This document shows, in pieces, positions 19,152 to 31,332 of a DNA stretch of 50,339 nucleotides (its first letter is position 1; each line of letters opens with the position of its first letter). This DNA is from Gammaproteobacteria bacterium (GTDB lineage: Bacteria > Pseudomonadota > Gammaproteobacteria > DRLM01). The position numbers and the translations under genes were made by a program. The stretch is taken from positions 1 to 50,339 of the forward strand of contig DRLM01000015.1 of the NCBI GenBank assembly GCA_011375345.1, written 5' to 3'. The notes below the pieces were generated by a model that saw only the letters and a program-made list of their open reading frames with translations, was not told the origin of the DNA and made no database searches.

Positions 19152-19679
19152 TTACTCCTTATTCTTTTGCAGCAGGGCCTCATAGTCGTTATTGAGCAGT
19201 CGCGTGCGAATCTTGTTCAAAGCACGCAGATCCTGGGAAGGCCCCACCCGCACCCGGTACCAGCTCACGCCGCTGTCTTTGAAGACGGGCTCGATGTGGG
19301 CCTCCACGCCCAGCAGGGCCAGTTCGGCCTTGAGCCGGTCGGCATCGCTGAAGGCGCGAAATGAACCCACCTGCAAAAAATAAGTGCCGGGTTTGCGCAG
19401 GCTTTCCGGTTTTGCCGATTCGGGCACCGGCACTTCCATTTCCGGGAGCAGTTCGTAGAAGTCGAAATCCAGGGTGTTGGAGGGCGCGCCTGGTGCGGCG
19501 GCCGGAGCGTTCGCCACAGGCCCGGCCTTGGTTTTCGTCCGCGCCGGGCCTTGTTGCAGGTAAGCCGCCAGCCCGATGGCCAATCCGATGGCCAGCCCGG
19601 TCACGCCCCAGACCCAGCCGGGCGCGCCGTGGCCGGTACTGCCGGGTTTTGGTTTCTTTTTAGGGGTCGCTTGCGCCAT
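19152..19679 (-). CDS. SPOR-domain membrane protein, FtsN-like
   Basis: A 175-residue bitopic inner-membrane protein. A basic cytoplasmic N-terminus (KKKPKPG) is followed by a helix at WVWGVTGLAIGLAIGLAAYL, a proline- and alanine-rich periplasmic linker, and a C-terminal SPOR domain (GTYFLQVGSFRAFSDADRLK to the end). SPOR domains bind denuded septal peptidoglycan, so a role at the division site is likely. The gene follows argS by one base, the same order as argS-ftsN in several gammaproteobacteria, although the hslVU genes that often follow are absent here. Whether it is the essential FtsN or another SPOR protein is undecided. Confidence 0.8.
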   Translation of the reverse strand: MAQATPKKKPKPGSTGHGAPGWVWGVTGLAIGLAIGLAAYLQQGPARTKTKAGPVANAPAAAPGAPSNTLDFDFYELLPEMEVPVPESAKPESLRKPGTYFLQVGSFRAFSDADRLKAELALLGVEAHIEPVFKDSGVSWYRVRVGPSQDLRALNKIRTRLLNNDYEALLQKNKE

Positions 19680-19680
19680 G

Positions 19681-21444
19681 TTACATGGCTTCCGGCGCGG
19701 ACACGCCCAGCATGTCCAGCCCGTTGGCGATCACCTGGCGTACGGCACTGATGAGATTCAAGCGGGCGTCGCGCAGGGCGTCGTCGTCCACCAAAAACTG
19801 GTGGGCGTTGTAATAGGTGTGCAGTTCGTTGGCCAACTCGCGCAGGTAGTGGGCCAGCAGGTGGGGCTCGTGACCCAGCGCGGCGGCTTCTACAATCTCA
19901 GGGTAGTGCGACAAGCGGTAGAGCAGTGCTCGTTCGTGCTCTTCGTGCAGCAGGTGCAAATTGCGCCCGCCCCGCGCCTCATCCCGCACCAGTCCTTTTT
20001 CCTTGAGCTGTTTCAGCACGCTGCACACGCGCGCATGGGCGTATTGCACGTAGTACACAGGGTTGTCCGAGGATTGGGACTTGGCCAGGTCCAGATCAAA
20101 ATCCAAATGTTGCTCGGCCCGGCGCATGACGTAAAAGAAACGGGCGGCATCGCAGCCCACTTCCCCGCGCAGTTCGCGCAAAGTGACAAACTCGCCGGAG
20201 CGGGTGGACATGGACAGCTTCTCGCCGCCCCGGTAGAGAATGGCGAATTGCACCAGCAGCACGTCCAGCCGCGCGGGGTCTTCGCCCATGGCCTGCAGGG
20301 CGGCTTTGACGCGCGGCACATAGCCGTGATGATCGGCGCCCCACACATCCACCACTTTGTGAAAGCCGCGCTGGAACTTGTCCAGGTGATAGGCGATGTC
20401 GGAGGCAAAATACGTCGTCTGGCCATTGTCGCGCACGAGAACGCGGTCTTTTTCATCACCGTAGTCGGTAGAGCGGAACCACAGCGCGCCGTCTTTTTCA
20501 TAACAGTGGCCCGATTGTTTCAAGCGCTCAATGGTCTGCCGCACTGCACCGCTGGCGGTGAGGGAGCGCTCCGAATACCAGTCGTCGTAGGTCACACCGA
20601 ACTCGGCCAGATCTGCGCGAATGTCCGCCAGCACTGTGTTCAGCGCCACATCGAATACTGCGCGGTAATCGTCCCTGCCCAACAGCGTTTTGCAGCGCTC
20701 GATGAGAGCGTCGATGTGTTCTTCCTTGTCGCCTTCCGGCGCATCGGCGGGCAGATCCGCCATCACCAGCGAAGCGCTGCGGCGCAGACGTTCGCCGTGA
20801 ATGCGGCGCAGGTCCGCCGCCATTTCCCGCACGTACCCACCCTGGTAGCCGTTGCTGGGAAAACGGAGGGTCTCACCCGCCAGCTCCAGATAACGCAGCC
20901 ACAGGCTGGCGGCGAGAATGTCCATCTGCCGTCCGGCGTCGTTGACGTAGTACTCCCGGTGCACCCGGAAGCCGGCCGCGTCCAGCAGGTTCGCCACCGC
21001 CGCGCCGTAGGCCGCGCCCCGCCCGTGACCCACGTGCAACGGGCCGGTGGGGTTGGCGGAGACGAATTCAACCTGCACCGGCTTGTCGTTCCCCACCGTA
21101 CTGCGTCCGAAAGCCGGACCGGCACGTAAAATGTCGCTCACCACCGCCTGCCACGCCGCCGGGCTCATGAAAAAATTGATGAAACCGGGTCCGGCGACAG
21201 CCACCTTCGCCACCGTATCCGAGCCGGGCAGTCGCGCCACCAGCGCCTCCGCCAACTGCCGCGGCGCCTGGCGGGCCGGCCCGGCCAGGGCCAGGGCCAG
21301 ATTGCTGGCGAAATCACCATGCCGGCGGTCGCGGGCGCGCTCCACTTTGACGGGAATGGCCGCCACCGCCTCCGCCGGTGCGAGACCGTCGGTCACCAGG
21401 CTGTTCAAGGCCGCTTGGAGCAGGGATTCGAGATGGTGTTTCAT
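19681..21444 (-). CDS. argS: Arginyl-tRNA synthetase
   Basis: Class I aminoacyl-tRNA synthetase of 587 residues that charges tRNA-Arg. The N-terminal additional domain is followed by the Rossmann core with the HIGH-like sequence [11 protein letters not shown] (about residue 130), the KMSKS-like [10 protein letters not shown], and the C-terminal anticodon-binding domain ending in the [18 protein letters not shown] helix. The C-terminal methionine is the usual end for the family. A sigma-70 promoter is visible just upstream (21475-21502). The SPOR gene follows after one base. Confidence 0.96.
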
Positions 21445-21602: not shown

Positions 21603-22700
21603 CTAATCGCCGTAGATGTACGAGACGATGGTGTGCCCCAGGTTGCTGATGATTTCCTTCTGCAGCTTTTGCACCGCCTTGGTCTCGGCCTCGGCGAAGT
21701 TCAGATGCCCTTCGCGGCCGTGCCTGGAAATGGCGCCGAAGATTTTGCCGGTGTGGCCGTTGATCAAATCCAGGTTTACCGCCCAATGCACGAACTTCCA
21801 GCGGGGGAGGTCGGCGTTTTTGAACTCCACCTTGCCCCTCAGCAGCACGTCTTTGTCCGCCATGCGGCCACCGGCACTCACGGCGAACCCGGCCTGGGTC
21901 AGTGCTTCGCGCAAGGCAGCGCGGATTTCCCTGCCGTGAGGGCCCTTGATTTCGACACCGAAGCGCATGTCTTTACGCAGCAGCCGCTCAATATCGTTGC
22001 TGATCTGCGTCACGCTCACGCTTGGTGAGACTCCCTGTCCGGTGCCGTTCACGGTGCCGAGATCGGTATTGTAAATCTCCCGCTCCAAGGCCAGCCGTTG
22101 AACACGACGATAGTTGCGCACCGCCTCGATTTTGTCTGCGGAAGCGGACACCTGCTGCAGCAGGGCGTCAATGTCGCCGTCGATGGCGGTGATTTTATTT
22201 CGCAATGCCGCCGCTGCCTGGGCCCGGTCCAGCACGGCCAGAGCGTAAGTCACCCGGTGGCGCCGGTCCACCCATACTTCAGCGATGTGGACGTTGCTGA
22301 GGGTTTTGTTGGTCACCACCGTGGTCGAACGGTCGATTTCCGTATCGGTGCTGAGGCGCACTTTGCCGCCCTGCTCGGTTTTGCGGGCCCGCTCTCGCAC
22401 GTCGATGGCGGCATCCACCTGGGCTTGAAATATCCTGGCGATGGCGGAATAGGCGGCATCTTCCGCTTCTTCCCGGGTGCCGCCGCTGCCCACGGCGCTC
22501 AGGTAGCGCTCATGGGGATATGCAAAACTCTCCTCACTGACCCAGTCGGGCTCAGGAGCGGAAATATCTTCCAGCGCAAGGGGGGCGGGCGGCGGCGGAG
22601 GCGCTTTGCCGGGCTGGCCGGCACAGGCAGTCAGGCCGGCGGCGGCCACCACTGAGGCGAGATGCAAGGCCCTTGACCTGAATGGCCGGCTCGTTTTCAT
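21603..22700 (-). CDS. LPP20-type outer-membrane lipoprotein
   Basis: A 365-residue lipoprotein precursor. The signal peptide ends in the lipobox LTAC, so the cysteine near residue 26 should be lipidated; the next residues (AGQ) favour outer-membrane sorting. After a proline-rich linker comes an LPP20/FlgP-like domain (YLSAVGSGGTREEAEDAAY, about residues 65-170). Then comes a helical stretch with DGDIDALLQQVSASADKIEAVRN, and a C-terminal domain that may resemble LPP20 or CsgG partner folds (DVLLRGKVEFKNADLPRW). The gene follows the CsgG/FlgT-like gene by 33 bases and shares its promoter. The precise role is unknown; flagellar or envelope scaffolding is inferred from the domain family. Confidence 0.7.
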   Translation of the reverse strand: MKTSRPFRSRALHLASVVAAAGLTACAGQPGKAPPPPPAPLALEDISAPEPDWVSEESFAYPHERYLSAVGSGGTREEAEDAAYSAIARIFQAQVDAAIDVRERARKTEQGGKVRLSTDTEIDRSTTVVTNKTLSNVHIAEVWVDRRHRVTYALAVLDRAQAAAALRNKITAIDGDIDALLQQVSASADKIEAVRNYRRVQRLALEREIYNTDLGTVNGTGQGVSPSVSVTQISNDIERLLRKDMRFGVEIKGPHGREIRAALREALTQAGFAVSAGGRMADKDVLLRGKVEFKNADLPRWKFVHWAVNLDLINGHTGKIFGAISRHGREGHLNFAEAETKAVQKLQKEIISNLGHTIVSYIYGD

Positions 22701-22733
22701 CGTTGATGTTCTCTTCCGCGCCCCGCCCGCCCG

Positions 22734-23951
22734 TTACCGCCTGAGGCGGGCGAGGGCCTTGGCGGAATGCTTTTTGAGCTTGCGCACCCGGGTGTTCCGC
22801 TGCACTTCTTCCAGTGTGCCGATGTAGCGGCGGTCGCCCGAGGCCCCCAGCACCCGGCACAGCCAGGCCATGGCGTCCATGTGATGACCATCGCCCGTGC
22901 GTTGCTGGTAACCCCTGAGCAGTTCGTCTTCCACCACTGCCAGCAGACCCGGCTCATACAGGGAGCGCCTGATGATGGTCTTGGCCGCCACTTTGACATC
23001 CCTGGCGCGCCGGGAACGCAGCATCCGCACATAACGCTCATGGCCCGGCCGGACCTGTTGCACCGCGGGGGGCGGCGCTGCGGGCACGCTTTGTTCGCGC
23101 TGCACCTCGGCGCGCATGGGGGCGGCGCTCACCGGGGCCGGGGCGCTGCGGGAGCCGCCGATGAGCACGATATCGTCCACCCGCACCGCGCTGTTTTCTT
23201 CAATGATGCTGGTGGCAGACAGGGAGTCGCCAATCGTCCGCTCCACCCGCAGCGTGGCCACATTGACCCGGTCGCGCCCGAGCACCCGGCCCGACGCGGG
23301 ATCCCGGTAGATCTCGCCCATGCGCTCGATCCTGAGCACCGAATCCGGCCGCACGCCGTCCTGCCTGCCCAGGCTGACGATGATTTCCTTGCCCTTGATC
23401 TTGACCACCTTGCCCCGCAGCGGCACGTTGGCGGCGATTTTGTCCACCAACAGCTTGATTGCCGATTGAATGCCTTCCTCGCCGTTGGCATTCACCGTTT
23501 CCGCCGCCTTGACCCGTGCTTCTTCCACGTCCACCAGTCGCACGTTCATGACGAGGGTGTTGCCCAGCTTGTTAATGCTCCCCATGGCCATCCACTCCAC
23601 CGCCAACAGCTTGCCCACGGCGATGACATCGTCATCGGTGGCACCACTGAGCTGGAAGGTCTGCTCCGCCAGGATTTTGTTCATCTGGTTGCGTTCGGTC
23701 ACATGGAAAAAGCCGGTTTTGAACAGCTCCGTACGCAGCAGATCGGAGGCGCTCAGGGCCAGTGACTCGGACACGCCAAAGGCATCCAGGTCGTTCACGG
23801 CGATTTTGACTTTTTCCGCCGCCAGAGCGACCCGGACGCAGACCGCCAGGCCCAGAAAAAGTGCGACGGTGAGGATAATGCGAATGAAGGGGAGCGGGTG
23901 CGGACGGGCGCGCGGACCCGGACAAGGAGCAAGCGTGTAGCCGTCAGACAT
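22734..23951 (-). CDS. CsgG/FlgT-like envelope protein with helical C-terminal repeats
   Basis: A 405-residue exported protein. A membrane or signal segment lies at IRIILTVALFLGLAVCVRVALAA without a clear lipobox. A CsgG/LpoB/FlgT-middle-like domain follows (KVKIAVNDLDAFG to about residue 175, with TGFFHVTERNQMNKILAEQ). Next is a small beta domain of FlgT-C type (GKEIIVSLGRQDGVRPDSVLR ... VRVDDIVLIGG). A proline/alanine linker leads to a basic, helical C-terminal region of about 100 residues that looks like HEAT-type repeats. GGAG at good spacing supports the MSDGYTL start. It is the first gene of a two-gene unit with the LPP20 lipoprotein; no flagellar or curli genes are nearby. Confidence 0.7.
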   Translation of the reverse strand: MSDGYTLAPCPGPRARPHPLPFIRIILTVALFLGLAVCVRVALAAEKVKIAVNDLDAFGVSESLALSASDLLRTELFKTGFFHVTERNQMNKILAEQTFQLSGATDDDVIAVGKLLAVEWMAMGSINKLGNTLVMNVRLVDVEEARVKAAETVNANGEEGIQSAIKLLVDKIAANVPLRGKVVKIKGKEIIVSLGRQDGVRPDSVLRIERMGEIYRDPASGRVLGRDRVNVATLRVERTIGDSLSATSIIEENSAVRVDDIVLIGGSRSAPAPVSAAPMRAEVQREQSVPAAPPPAVQQVRPGHERYVRMLRSRRARDVKVAAKTIIRRSLYEPGLLAVVEDELLRGYQQRTGDGHHMDAMAWLCRVLGASGDRRYIGTLEEVQRNTRVRKLKKHSAKALARLRR

Positions 23952-24044: not shown

Positions 24045-24072
24045 ACTATAGCGCGTATGGTCGCCCCGTCAA
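24045..24072 (-). promoter_or_regulatory. Sigma-70 promoter for the CsgG-like/LPP20 pair
   Basis: Minus-strand TTGACG and TATAGT, 16 bases apart, form a near-consensus promoter. Transcription would start near 24038, giving a leader of about 87 bases that includes a short AGCCC/GGGCT stem before the ribosome site. Confidence 0.55.
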
Positions 24073-24403: not shown

Positions 24404-25096
24404 CTAGACTGCCAGATGGCGGTGAATCAAAGCCTCGCTCAGCGCCCCCATGAGGTCCGCTGCCACCACCCGGCCTTTTTCCAGTAAACAAAAGCGGTCA
24501 CCGACACGGCGGGCGAAGGGGAGTTTTTGTTCCACCAGCAGGACAGTAAGGCCTTCTTCCCGGTTCAGACACTGGATCACCTCGCCGATGAGCTGCACGA
24601 TGTTGGGTTGTATGCCTTCACAGGGCTCATCGAGGATGAGCAGTTCGGGTTCCACCATCAGGGCCCGGCCGATGGCGAGCTGTTGTTGCTGGCCGCCGGA
24701 GAGATCACCGCCGCGGCGGCGGCGCATGTCGTGGAGCACAGGGAACAGGTCGAAGATACGCTGGGGAATGCCCTTTTTGCGGCGCCCGGCGGCCAGGGCG
24801 GTGAGCAGGTTTTCTTCCACGGTAAGCTGGCTGAAGATGCCGCGGCCCTGGGGCACGTAACCGATACCCAAACGGGGACGGAGTTCCACCGTGCGGCCCA
24901 ACAATGATTGACCGTTGAAGCTGACCTCGCCGGAGGCCGCCGGCACCAAGCCCATCACCACGTTCAGCAAGGTGGTCTTGCCCATGCCGTTGCGACCCAT
25001 GAGCACGGTGCACTGACCCTGGGGCACGTCCATGTCCACGTCCCACAGGGTGTGGGACTGGCCATAGTATTGATTGAGTCCTGTGATACGGAGCAT
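24404..25096 (-). CDS. urtE: Urea ABC transporter ATPase UrtE
   Basis: Second ATPase of the urea importer, 230 residues, of the LivF-like class. The Walker A GRNGMGKT, the ABC signature LSGGQQQQLAIGRALM and the Walker B LLILDEPCEGIQPNIV are intact. The phrase GIQPNIV after Walker B is characteristic of UrtE. It begins one base after urtD ends and is the last gene of the porin-urtABCDE unit. Confidence 0.95.
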   Translation of the reverse strand: MLRITGLNQYYGQSHTLWDVDMDVPQGQCTVLMGRNGMGKTTLLNVVMGLVPAASGEVSFNGQSLLGRTVELRPRLGIGYVPQGRGIFSQLTVEENLLTALAAGRRKKGIPQRIFDLFPVLHDMRRRRGGDLSGGQQQQLAIGRALMVEPELLILDEPCEGIQPNIVQLIGEVIQCLNREEGLTVLLVEQKLPFARRVGDRFCLLEKGRVVAADLMGALSEALIHRHLAV

Positions 25097-30201: not shown

Positions 30202-31332
30202 TCAGATTTGCAACTGCACGCCGATTTTGAAGCTGTTGACATCGCTCGCTCCCGGTCCCGGATCGGTATTGGAATAGACGATGCTGACCCGGGCGTTGTG
30301 GCCGTCGATGATGTAGTTCAGCCCCACATCAGTGGTGGTCGCCTCGCCGGTCTTGCCGGCGGCGTTGGTGCTGTCGCGGTCGAAGTTTTGATAGCGCAGC
30401 AGGGGCTGCAACTGGCCGATGCCGGTTTTCACGGGCAGCAAATAGCTGGCGAGTATCAGATAACTGCTGCCCTGGGTGAGGCTGGCATCGGCCACGTCAC
30501 CCAGGTCATAGTCGTAGTAGGCCGCCTCAAACGTGCCGGTGCCGGCGCTGCCGAATTTCTTCTCAAAGAGGAAATCAATGTTCCAGCCGGTAAAGTCACC
30601 CTTGGCAGTCGGTGTGCCGGCGCCGTCGGCCTGGTTCATGTAGGTCAGCCCCACGGCCAGGATGTCCTTGCTGCCGTAGTAGGTGCTGCTGTTGTAGTAG
30701 CCGGGTTCAGGATCCCAAAAATTCAATACCACCCGGCCGGCGAACAACAAGTTGTCTTCGTCGTTGGACGTGCCGGCGCCGTCCCGGCCTTCAAAAAAAC
30801 CGGCCTGATACTTGAACATGCCACCACCCACCTGGCCCCACACCGCAGCGCCGTCATCCCGGCCGGCAAAGATGGCCGGATAGGCCTGCACCATGGGGAA
30901 ATCCCAGGCGTTCAGGTAGTAGGGACCATCGAGATTGGACCGGTCGCTGGGCGGCAGGAAACGGCCCAGCCAGACATTGAAGGCGTCGGTGAAATTGAAC
31001 TGGACGATGGCGTCCAGCACCCGCACGGCACTGTCGTTGCCGCTGTCGATTTCCGTGTTGAAGGTCAATGAAATGTTTTCGTGCACCCGGCCGCCAGTGT
31101 AGAGCCGCATATTGCCGGCGGCAAAGTCTTTGGACGGATCGGAGCCGCTGGGAGCGGCGTCATCTTCTGCGGTGAAACTGGCGCGTATGCCGGCGCCGAC
31201 GCTGAACGATTTTACATCGTCGATTTTGAGGGTGGCGCCGGCCGTGGCGACTTGCGGTGCCAGGCCCCATGCCCCCAGGCTGAGGCAGGTGAACAGCGCG
31301 GGAAGCGATCGCTTGCGATAAGAATTGCCCAT
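30202..31332 (-). CDS. Outer-membrane porin, probable urea/short-amide porin
   Basis: A 376-residue beta-barrel protein with a signal peptide (cleavage near QVATA) and alternating strands such as MRLYTGGRVHENISLTFNTEI and NVWLGRFLPPSDRSNLDGP. It resembles the FmdC-like porins for short-chain amides and urea. It is first in the porin-urtABCDE unit and so probably lets urea through the outer membrane. The C-terminal residue is isoleucine rather than the usual phenylalanine. GGGAGA sits 8 bases before the start; a CTTAAC/GTTAAG stem (31345-31368) begins at the edge of this ribosome site and might tune translation. Its leader carries the sigma-54 promoter described separately. Confidence 0.8.
   Translation of the reverse strand: MGNSYRKRSLPALFTCLSLGAWGLAPQVATAGATLKIDDVKSFSVGAGIRASFTAEDDAAPSGSDPSKDFAAGNMRLYTGGRVHENISLTFNTEIDSGNDSAVRVLDAIVQFNFTDAFNVWLGRFLPPSDRSNLDGPYYLNAWDFPMVQAYPAIFAGRDDGAAVWGQVGGGMFKYQAGFFEGRDGAGTSNDEDNLLFAGRVVLNFWDPEPGYYNSSTYYGSKDILAVGLTYMNQADGAGTPTAKGDFTGWNIDFLFEKKFGSAGTGTFEAAYYDYDLGDVADASLTQGSSYLILASYLLPVKTGIGQLQPLLRYQNFDRDSTNAAGKTGEATTTDVGLNYIIDGHNARVSIVYSNTDPGPGASDVNSFKIGVQLQI

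Follow-up and report, generated by a model that had tools for sequence, protein, structure and literature searches.

Two neighboring minus-strand genes in contig DRLM01000015.1 of a Gammaproteobacteria bacterium (assembly GCA_011375345.1; lineage DRLM01) encode an exported protein, P0001, and an LPP20/HP1454-type lipoprotein, P0002; the whole stretch analyzed, 50,339 nucleotides, is called the window below. Our favored reading, which we hold tentatively, makes the pair a two-gene form, specific to its lineage, of the HP1454/Lpp20-LpoB-TPR envelope lipoprotein module, with wall synthesis perhaps as its client. Because close relatives of P0002 sit in cell-wall lipoprotein gene clusters, we think it most probable that the two genes represent an uncommon form of an envelope system that has been little studied, and not a ring machine of a new kind. 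An initial annotation had likened the pair to the flagellar outer-membrane rings of Vibrio, a likeness that holds for the folds; by gene context the nearest system is the LpoB/LPP20/TPR-like lipoprotein operon, which that annotation did not name. The gene pair exists as it was read, with both frames intact on the minus strand and 33 bases apart.

P0002 is matched by Pfam LPP20 at 3e-9 (37.7 bits against a cut-off of 25.9) and carries an LTAC lipobox whose cysteine, Cys26, is kept in at least 90% of the 27 aligned family sequences, in agreement with its earlier description as an LPP20/FlgP-like lipoprotein. The top Foldseek match of its model (mean predicted local distance difference test score (pLDDT) 85, from 27 aligned sequences) is Helicobacter pylori HP1454 (4kzs, 2.4e-7), the same entry that an alignment profile search returned at 5e-5. 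In a second structural comparison, 4kzs aligned over residues 63-365 (238 aligned, Z 10.3, root-mean-square deviation (rmsd) 5.7); FlgT headed that list over residues 65-365 (180 aligned, Z 11.8, rmsd 12.6), and P0002 thus aligns to FlgT as well as to HP1454. Lpp20 (5ok8) aligned over residues 49-170 (101 aligned, Z 10.4, rmsd 3.6), and residues of about 240-365 drew many tied rows of TolB, PelC, CsgG and LptE type. Searches of the PDB with the single P0001 or P0002 sequence gave nothing convincing.

P0002 has matches in 35 of 369 class genomes (here and below, the class and phylum samples are subsets of larger groups), at 43 places including the window's own. We opened 24 of the other 42 places widely: 20 loci (19 of the best 20 after the window and one weaker), then four weaker ones. 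LpoB, a COG3014-like protein and a large LPP20 protein are encoded together at 18 of these 24 loci, comprising 18 of the 20 mostly closer loci and none of the four weaker, and 13 of the 18 also have a small LPP20 gene. The LpoB, COG3014-like and LPP20 profiles were built here from the opened loci. The TPR-like operon protein is what we take to be COG3014; Pfam TPR is over its cut-off in the G201 copy and under it in the copy on contig C62, and the G054 copy has no Pfam match. The C62 locus (L050), in the pair's own genome, is one of the 18, with an LpoB protein at 134 bits (Pfam). This LpoB operon (L050:8930-11168) has no small LPP20 gene, one of which is present in the same-family genomes G001, G002 and G004; upstream of it lie instead a HAD-like gene (by eye) and an ISL3 transposase, and no remnant of a small LPP20 gene was found in the 3.6 kb scanned upstream.

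P0002 shares 19-27% identity with its 26 aligned relatives, and its branch (3.1) is the longest of the 27 in the tree and is unplaced. The C62 copy clusters with sequences from its own family at a support of 85/42, in a tree whose bootstrap had not settled and that drew a long-branch warning. On this weakly supported tree P0002 is a divergent paralogue; its origin as a recent copy of the C62 gene was rejected on these placements.

Published work places relatives of this module in other bacteria. H. pylori HP1454 shares an operon with Lpp20/HP1456, which is termed a lipoprotein of unknown function (PMC11756786); HP1457 is an LpoB homologue whose relatives adjoin HP0018 in several Helicobacter species (PMC11394524). 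A Campylobacter operon has the order Cj0089 (TPR-like)-Cj0090-Cj0091, with Cj0091 resembling HP1457 (PMC3100323), and LpoB activates PBP1b in E. coli (PMC13423804). Within the paper library available to us, a search on COG3014, on FlgT with FlgP and CsgG, or on any two of CsgG-like, FlgT and TsaP found no paper.

P0001 begins at an ATG with a GGAG-type ribosome site upstream (by eye) and is matched by Pfam CsgG at 9e-13 (48.4 bits, cut-off 20.8). Its profile and model were made from an alignment, A3, of P0001 and 16 relatives (17 sequences; N-terminal rows only); a mixed alignment of N- and C-terminal fragments (A2) was misaligned and was dropped. In the model (mean pLDDT 77) a CsgG/TolB_N domain is followed by a barrel and, at the C terminus, by six helices, with no FlgT N domain; since A3 holds N-terminal rows only, no aligned relatives informed the folding of the HEAT region (block pLDDT 65-88). 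FlgT (3w1e, 9e-13) leads the Foldseek matches, followed by the LPHT ring (8z5n, 6e-12), and residues 46-267 align to FlgT 97-355, its middle and C domains (202 aligned, Z 14.3, rmsd 7.7). TolB matches the first domain at Z 15.4, and LpoB (4q6l) matches the model at 6e-6 (Foldseek). The A3 profile finds CsgG (6e-14), TsaP (7e-14) and FlgT (2e-5), and the N-terminal profile also reaches the LpoB proteins of LpoB/COG3014-like/LPP20 operons. Pfam FlgT_C and FlgT_N were not called on P0001 and LysM was not matched; the FlgT_C-like domain is supported by both fold and A3 profile. The C terminus is related to exported HEAT-like proteins (HEAT_2 falls under its cut-off on the paralogue). The domains first proposed for P0001, a CsgG/FlgT-middle-like part, a FlgT-C-like part and a helical C terminus, hold and are better founded than when they were proposed: P0001 matches the FlgT middle and C domains, and P0002 aligns to both FlgT and HP1454.

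Counting the pair's own genome, P0001 has matches in 14 of 95 relatives, 40 of 369 class genomes and 26 of 398 phylum genomes. Two separate relatives lie in its own genome, on contigs C59 (CsgG-FlgT_C) and C126 (two HEAT-like units). Several loci bring the parts of the pair together. The gene order is LpoB, DUF1425, TPR and CsgG-FlgT_C in G201 (L110); LpoB (142 bits), a DUF6844 protein, CsgG-FlgT_C (FlgT_C by our own profile only) and COG3014-like in G054 (L163); FecR, LPP20, GNA1162-like and CsgG-FlgT_C in G158 (L102); and CsgG-FlgT_C, FlgT_N-like (23.8 bits, under cut-off), LPP20 (55 bits) and FecR in G597 (L159). In G008 (L162) an LPP20-like gene (own profile, not Pfam) comes after the gene of a CsgG protein whose helical, TPR-like repeats stay below the Pfam cut-offs, and in G200 (L121) the gene next after an LPP20 gene is, by profile, of CsgG type. 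Three of the CsgG-FlgT_C proteins exceed the LpoB cut-off of 22.3 bits (L110, 35.1; L102, 26.4; L163, 30.6). A CsgG-type domain, a helical repeat and LPP20 therefore recur together in some genomes, split or fused, and the window holds the fusion plus LPP20. The trio offers a testable idea on the role of the HP1454/Lpp20 operon and the origin of H-ring proteins, and it joins three sets that usually stand apart: FlgT-type ring proteins, LpoB-type wall-synthase activators and HP1454/Lpp20 lipoproteins.

A body of evidence weighs against assigning the pair to this module. In a sample not selected for such a link, an LPP20 or COG3014-like gene flanks only 2 of 48 CsgG-type loci (L019, L089) and none of 14 HEAT-only loci (flanks up to about 1.5 kb; overlapping loci L131/L152 and L003/L004 included), so the link is a minority pattern among P0001 relatives; the wider P0001-relative loci, moreover, were partly opened because of LPP20/LpoB hints. 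Among the 20 mostly closer P0002 loci, L056 has no COG3014-like gene and L064 neither that nor LpoB, and the weaker L102, L115, L120 and L121 are without the LpoB/COG3014-like set. P0001 scores 14.1 bits with Pfam LpoB, under the cut-off of 22.3, and has no lipobox (by eye), and apart from the domain of P0001 itself, neither an LpoB nor a COG3014-like gene was found in the window. The published text consulted gives no wall phenotype for HP1454 or Lpp20, deletion of hp1456 left bacitracin resistance unchanged (PMC11756786), and for HP0018/HP1457 a role in peptidoglycan is no more than a suggestion (PMC11394524).

Domains, predicted folds, signal motifs, gene order, family context and the presence of relatives in genomes lacking FlgI were computed here; from lipidation and its site to physical partnership, client and function, the following model is what we infer. 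P0002 would be lipid-anchored, probably in the outer membrane, and show its SHS2 and TolB_N-like domains to the periplasm. P0001 would be its soluble partner, with a CsgG/LpoB-type domain, a FlgT_C-like barrel as in secretin-associated TsaP, and a HEAT-like scaffold that may stand in for the separate TPR-like protein of the usual operon. Through CsgG/SHS2 contacts P0002 could recruit P0001 to the outer membrane, where the HEAT arm might dock a client in the periplasm, perhaps an enzyme acting on peptidoglycan as synthase or hydrolase; such a module would couple the outer membrane to the building of the wall or to the spacing of the envelope.

An alternative that we consider unlikely is a split FlgT/FlgP-like motor accessory, in which P0002 corresponds to FlgT N and middle and P0001 to middle and C, forming an H-ring-like collar. 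FlgT tops the Foldseek list of P0001 and the second structural list of P0002, but the P0002 row is tied with PelC, CsgG and others. The organism is flagellated, with FlgI (Pfam) and a flgD-flgL-like run (by eye) on contig C125, so the absence of flagellar genes noted earlier holds for the window and not for the genome. No separate canonical FlgP or FlgT was detected in the genome with the LPP20 and FlgT_C models (FlgO and FlgT_N were not searched): the only FlgT_C match, on C59, reaches 23.2 bits, under the cut-off of 27, and the only LPP20 matches are P0002 and one in the C62 LpoB operon. Two-hybrid and co-immunoprecipitation tests are reported to link HP1454 and HP1456 with FlgP (PMC11756786), a point against independence from flagella, but deletion of H. 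pylori hp1456 altered neither motility nor the motor image (PMC11756786).

Distribution points away from the motor. FlgI was found in 37 of 52 genomes tested. It is missing from 10 of the 32 tested among the 35 P0002-match genomes, 7 of the 10 being at least 90% complete, and G001, G128, G185 and G349 lack it while being at least 92% complete and having the whole operon. It is likewise missing from 5 of 20 tested genomes with a match to the N-terminal or FlgT_C part of P0001 (G016, G059, G121, G362, G371; 20 of about 49 listed genomes were tested, with G008 and G054 left out). As relatives of both proteins occur without FlgI, the module type does not depend on flagella, which bears out the view that such proteins are not tied to them. 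Nor is the pair a core part of the family's flagellum, because the same-family genomes G001-G005 lack a P0001 match, except for weak FlgT_C-only matches in G003, and 4 of the 5 have FlgI (completeness is no higher than 83% for G003 and 75% for G005).

The pair might instead be lineage-specific with another job, for example with the neighboring urea transporter or urease, or an orphan of little function, which we regard as improbable. The full pair was found only in this genome. Exact-peptide scans of genome contigs, which detect close relatives only and may leave out near records, found no relative of P0001 or P0002, and the relatives, class and phylum searches listed no match outside the genome spanning the CsgG, FlgT_C and HEAT regions of P0001, a picture close to restriction to one strain, and the pair alone, being found in a single genome, has modest weight. 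In the phylum sample, one weak match in G653 (24% identity over residues 181-372, its frame interrupted by two stops) extends into the HEAT region. P0002's place as the longest branch fits a separate job, as does the position of the genes: priA lies upstream of argS in 3 of 5 same-family genomes (G002, G004, G005), and in its place the window has the pair with ABC-transporter and urease genes. Against this reading, neither frame is disrupted, both carry signal motifs and have predicted folds, and their composition is that of their neighbors (GC of the two genes 0.64 and 0.62, window 0.62). Base composition gives no sign of a recent foreign origin, an idea we set aside; because of this native composition and the different genes upstream of argS in same-family genomes, the pair is probably a lineage-specific arrangement of some age and not a recent foreign piece.

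The initial annotation had raised a ring or scaffold of the outer membrane that stands by itself, with no tie to flagella or wall synthesis. The matched folds do include the ring-formers FlgT, PelC, CsgG and TraT; ring formation itself is argued from fold, and the same lists hold TolB, LptE, LpoB and GNA1162, which are not known as rings. P0001 is without the CsgG hairpin segments. In P0002, the model shows no FlgP-type beta-hairpin insert but has a helix at 116-136 (block pLDDT 47-83, low confidence) where it would sit, the insert between the SHS2 helix and the second strand that has been linked to FlgP/FlgT ring formation (PMC12222027). We regard such a ring as doubtful.

By their fold alignments to FlgT, P0001 and P0002 together hold predicted counterparts of all three FlgT domains. 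There is a slim chance that they are two halves of a FlgT-like protein evolved outside the flagellum, N and middle in P0002 and middle and C in P0001, forming an outer-membrane collar through paired CsgG-type domains, with HEAT arms reaching to the wall. If so, this and the LpoB operons that hold CsgG-FlgT_C would suggest that the Vibrio H ring derives from a general wall-linked envelope lipoprotein system.

That P0001 is a curli-type secretion channel is very improbable: Pfam CsgG is over its cut-off, but no curli gene is named in the window, and P0001 is no curli-type pore because it lacks a lipobox and both CsgG membrane-hairpin segments. In A3, the two hairpin sites are 3 and 9 residues long in P0001, against 3-41 and 15-39 in the other 16 rows; the first site is at least 20 residues long in 14 of the 16 relatives and the second at least 15 in all 16, and the short first site is shared with P0001 by two rows, L103 and L104. 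CsgG aligns residues to the longer insertions of the relatives at these sites, and the first insertion lines up with CsgG residues carrying its first membrane hairpin. The CsgG-FlgT_C paralogue on contig C59 of the same genome (L070:5430-6350; Pfam CsgG, 121 bits) retains insertions at the two sites (20 and 30) and is a candidate for a pore-forming protein of CsgG type in this genome.

Large exported-looking proteins at L103:6586-8493, L104:5725-7614 and L157:1220-3073 combine AhpC/TSA and TPR parts (Pfam on L103 only) with a CsgG-FlgT_C-like end, and next to them lie kinase-like genes (with Pfam protein kinase checked for L103) and another CsgG-type protein that stands alone; an envelope signaling module is possible there. 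Exported-looking proteins with one or two HEAT-like units, relatives of the P0001 C terminus (L071:6878-7651, L107:5959-6729, L112:5378-6106, L113:5653-6417, L116:6388-6951), are encoded next to ketosynthase-type genes (Pfam ketosynthase checked in L107 and L113), in what we take to be aryl-polyene clusters.

The features of the pair are listed below. The pair is flanked on one side by an ABC transporter gene of branched-chain type (24404-25096) and on the other by argS (19681-21444). Its promoter candidate, TTGACG-16-TATAGT, matches 10 of 12 consensus positions, so the near-consensus promoter reported initially is there to be read; it is only suggestive, because 3.2 kb hold two such sites where 0.6 (standard deviation 0.7) are expected. 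With a simple script of our own we called 41 window genes, the pair included, and all 39 others were scanned with Pfam: 36 received names (Trk, Ntr, rsmB, fmt, SPOR, argS, ABC transporter, urease, dnaA, dnaN, recF-like, gyrB and others) and three did not (4210, 9478, 30202). Among the 36 named genes none is flagellar, curli or penicillin-binding protein (PBP). A SPOR-domain gene begins one base after argS (19152-21444), a duo kept in the same-family genomes G001, G002 and G004; the pair sits just upstream of it on the same strand. Between the periplasmic binding protein gene of the ABC cluster and a ureG-like gene, a 376-aa protein (30202-31332) has no Pfam match at 1e-8.

Table 1. Features of the P0001-P0002 locus (window positions)
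Feature	Position	Strand	Description or basis
P0001	22734..23951	minus	Exported, 405 aa; a CsgG/TolB_N domain, then a FlgT_C-like barrel and HEAT-like helices
Sec-type signal region of P0001 (residues 1-44)	23820..23951	minus	By eye; no Cys lipobox at end
CsgG/TolB_N-like domain of P0001 (residues 46-175)	23427..23816	minus	Pfam CsgG, alignment, model; both CsgG membrane-hairpin segments missing
FlgT_C-like beta barrel of P0001 (residues 176-266)	23154..23426	minus	Model, Foldseek, profile
HEAT-like helical domain of P0001 (residues 303-405)	22737..23045	minus	Model: six helices, 305-404
P0002	21603..22700	minus	365 aa LPP20/HP1454-type lipoprotein
Lipoprotein signal of P0002, lipobox LTAC, Cys26	22623..22700	minus	By eye; lipidation predicted
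LPP20/SHS2 domain of P0002 (about residues 49-158)	22227..22556	minus	Pfam LPP20; Lpp20 5ok8
Two-helix hairpin of P0002 (residues 159-218)	22047..22226	minus	Model
Second CsgG/TolB_N/PelC-like alpha-beta domain of P0002 (about residues 230-363)	21612..22013	minus	Model, fold matches
Sigma-70-like promoter candidate	24045..24072	minus	94 bases upstream of P0001 start; consensus match only

Compared with known systems, P0002 most resembles HP1454 (4kzs) and the large LPP20 proteins of proteobacterial LpoB operons, with which it shares domain order, a profile match and the lipobox cysteine; it differs in having P0001 at its side where they have LpoB and COG3014-like genes, and in its long branch and 19-27% identity to the 26 aligned relatives. 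The N domain of P0001 shares its fold (4q6l) and a profile link with LpoB, whose genes lie in the operons of P0002 relatives, but P0001 has no lipobox, stays under the LpoB cut-off and carries two further domains. FlgT, the H-ring protein of sodium-driven polar flagella (3w1e; LPHT ring 8z5n), has its middle and C domains in the same order as P0001, and P0002 has SHS2 and TolB_N-like domains like FlgT N and middle. FlgT, however, is N-M-C in one chain, whereas here there are two chains, of which P0001 has no N domain and adds HEAT-like helices and P0002 has a lipobox; flagellar linkage is absent and Pfam FlgT_C is not reached. With TsaP, the LysM protein of type IV pilus secretins (6ve2, 3jc8), P0001 has the FlgT_C-like domain in common (profile 7e-14), but it has CsgG and HEAT-like domains in place of a LysM match. 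Finally, P0001 passes the Pfam cut-off of the CsgG/GNA1162 family, but without the membrane-hairpin segments and lipobox.

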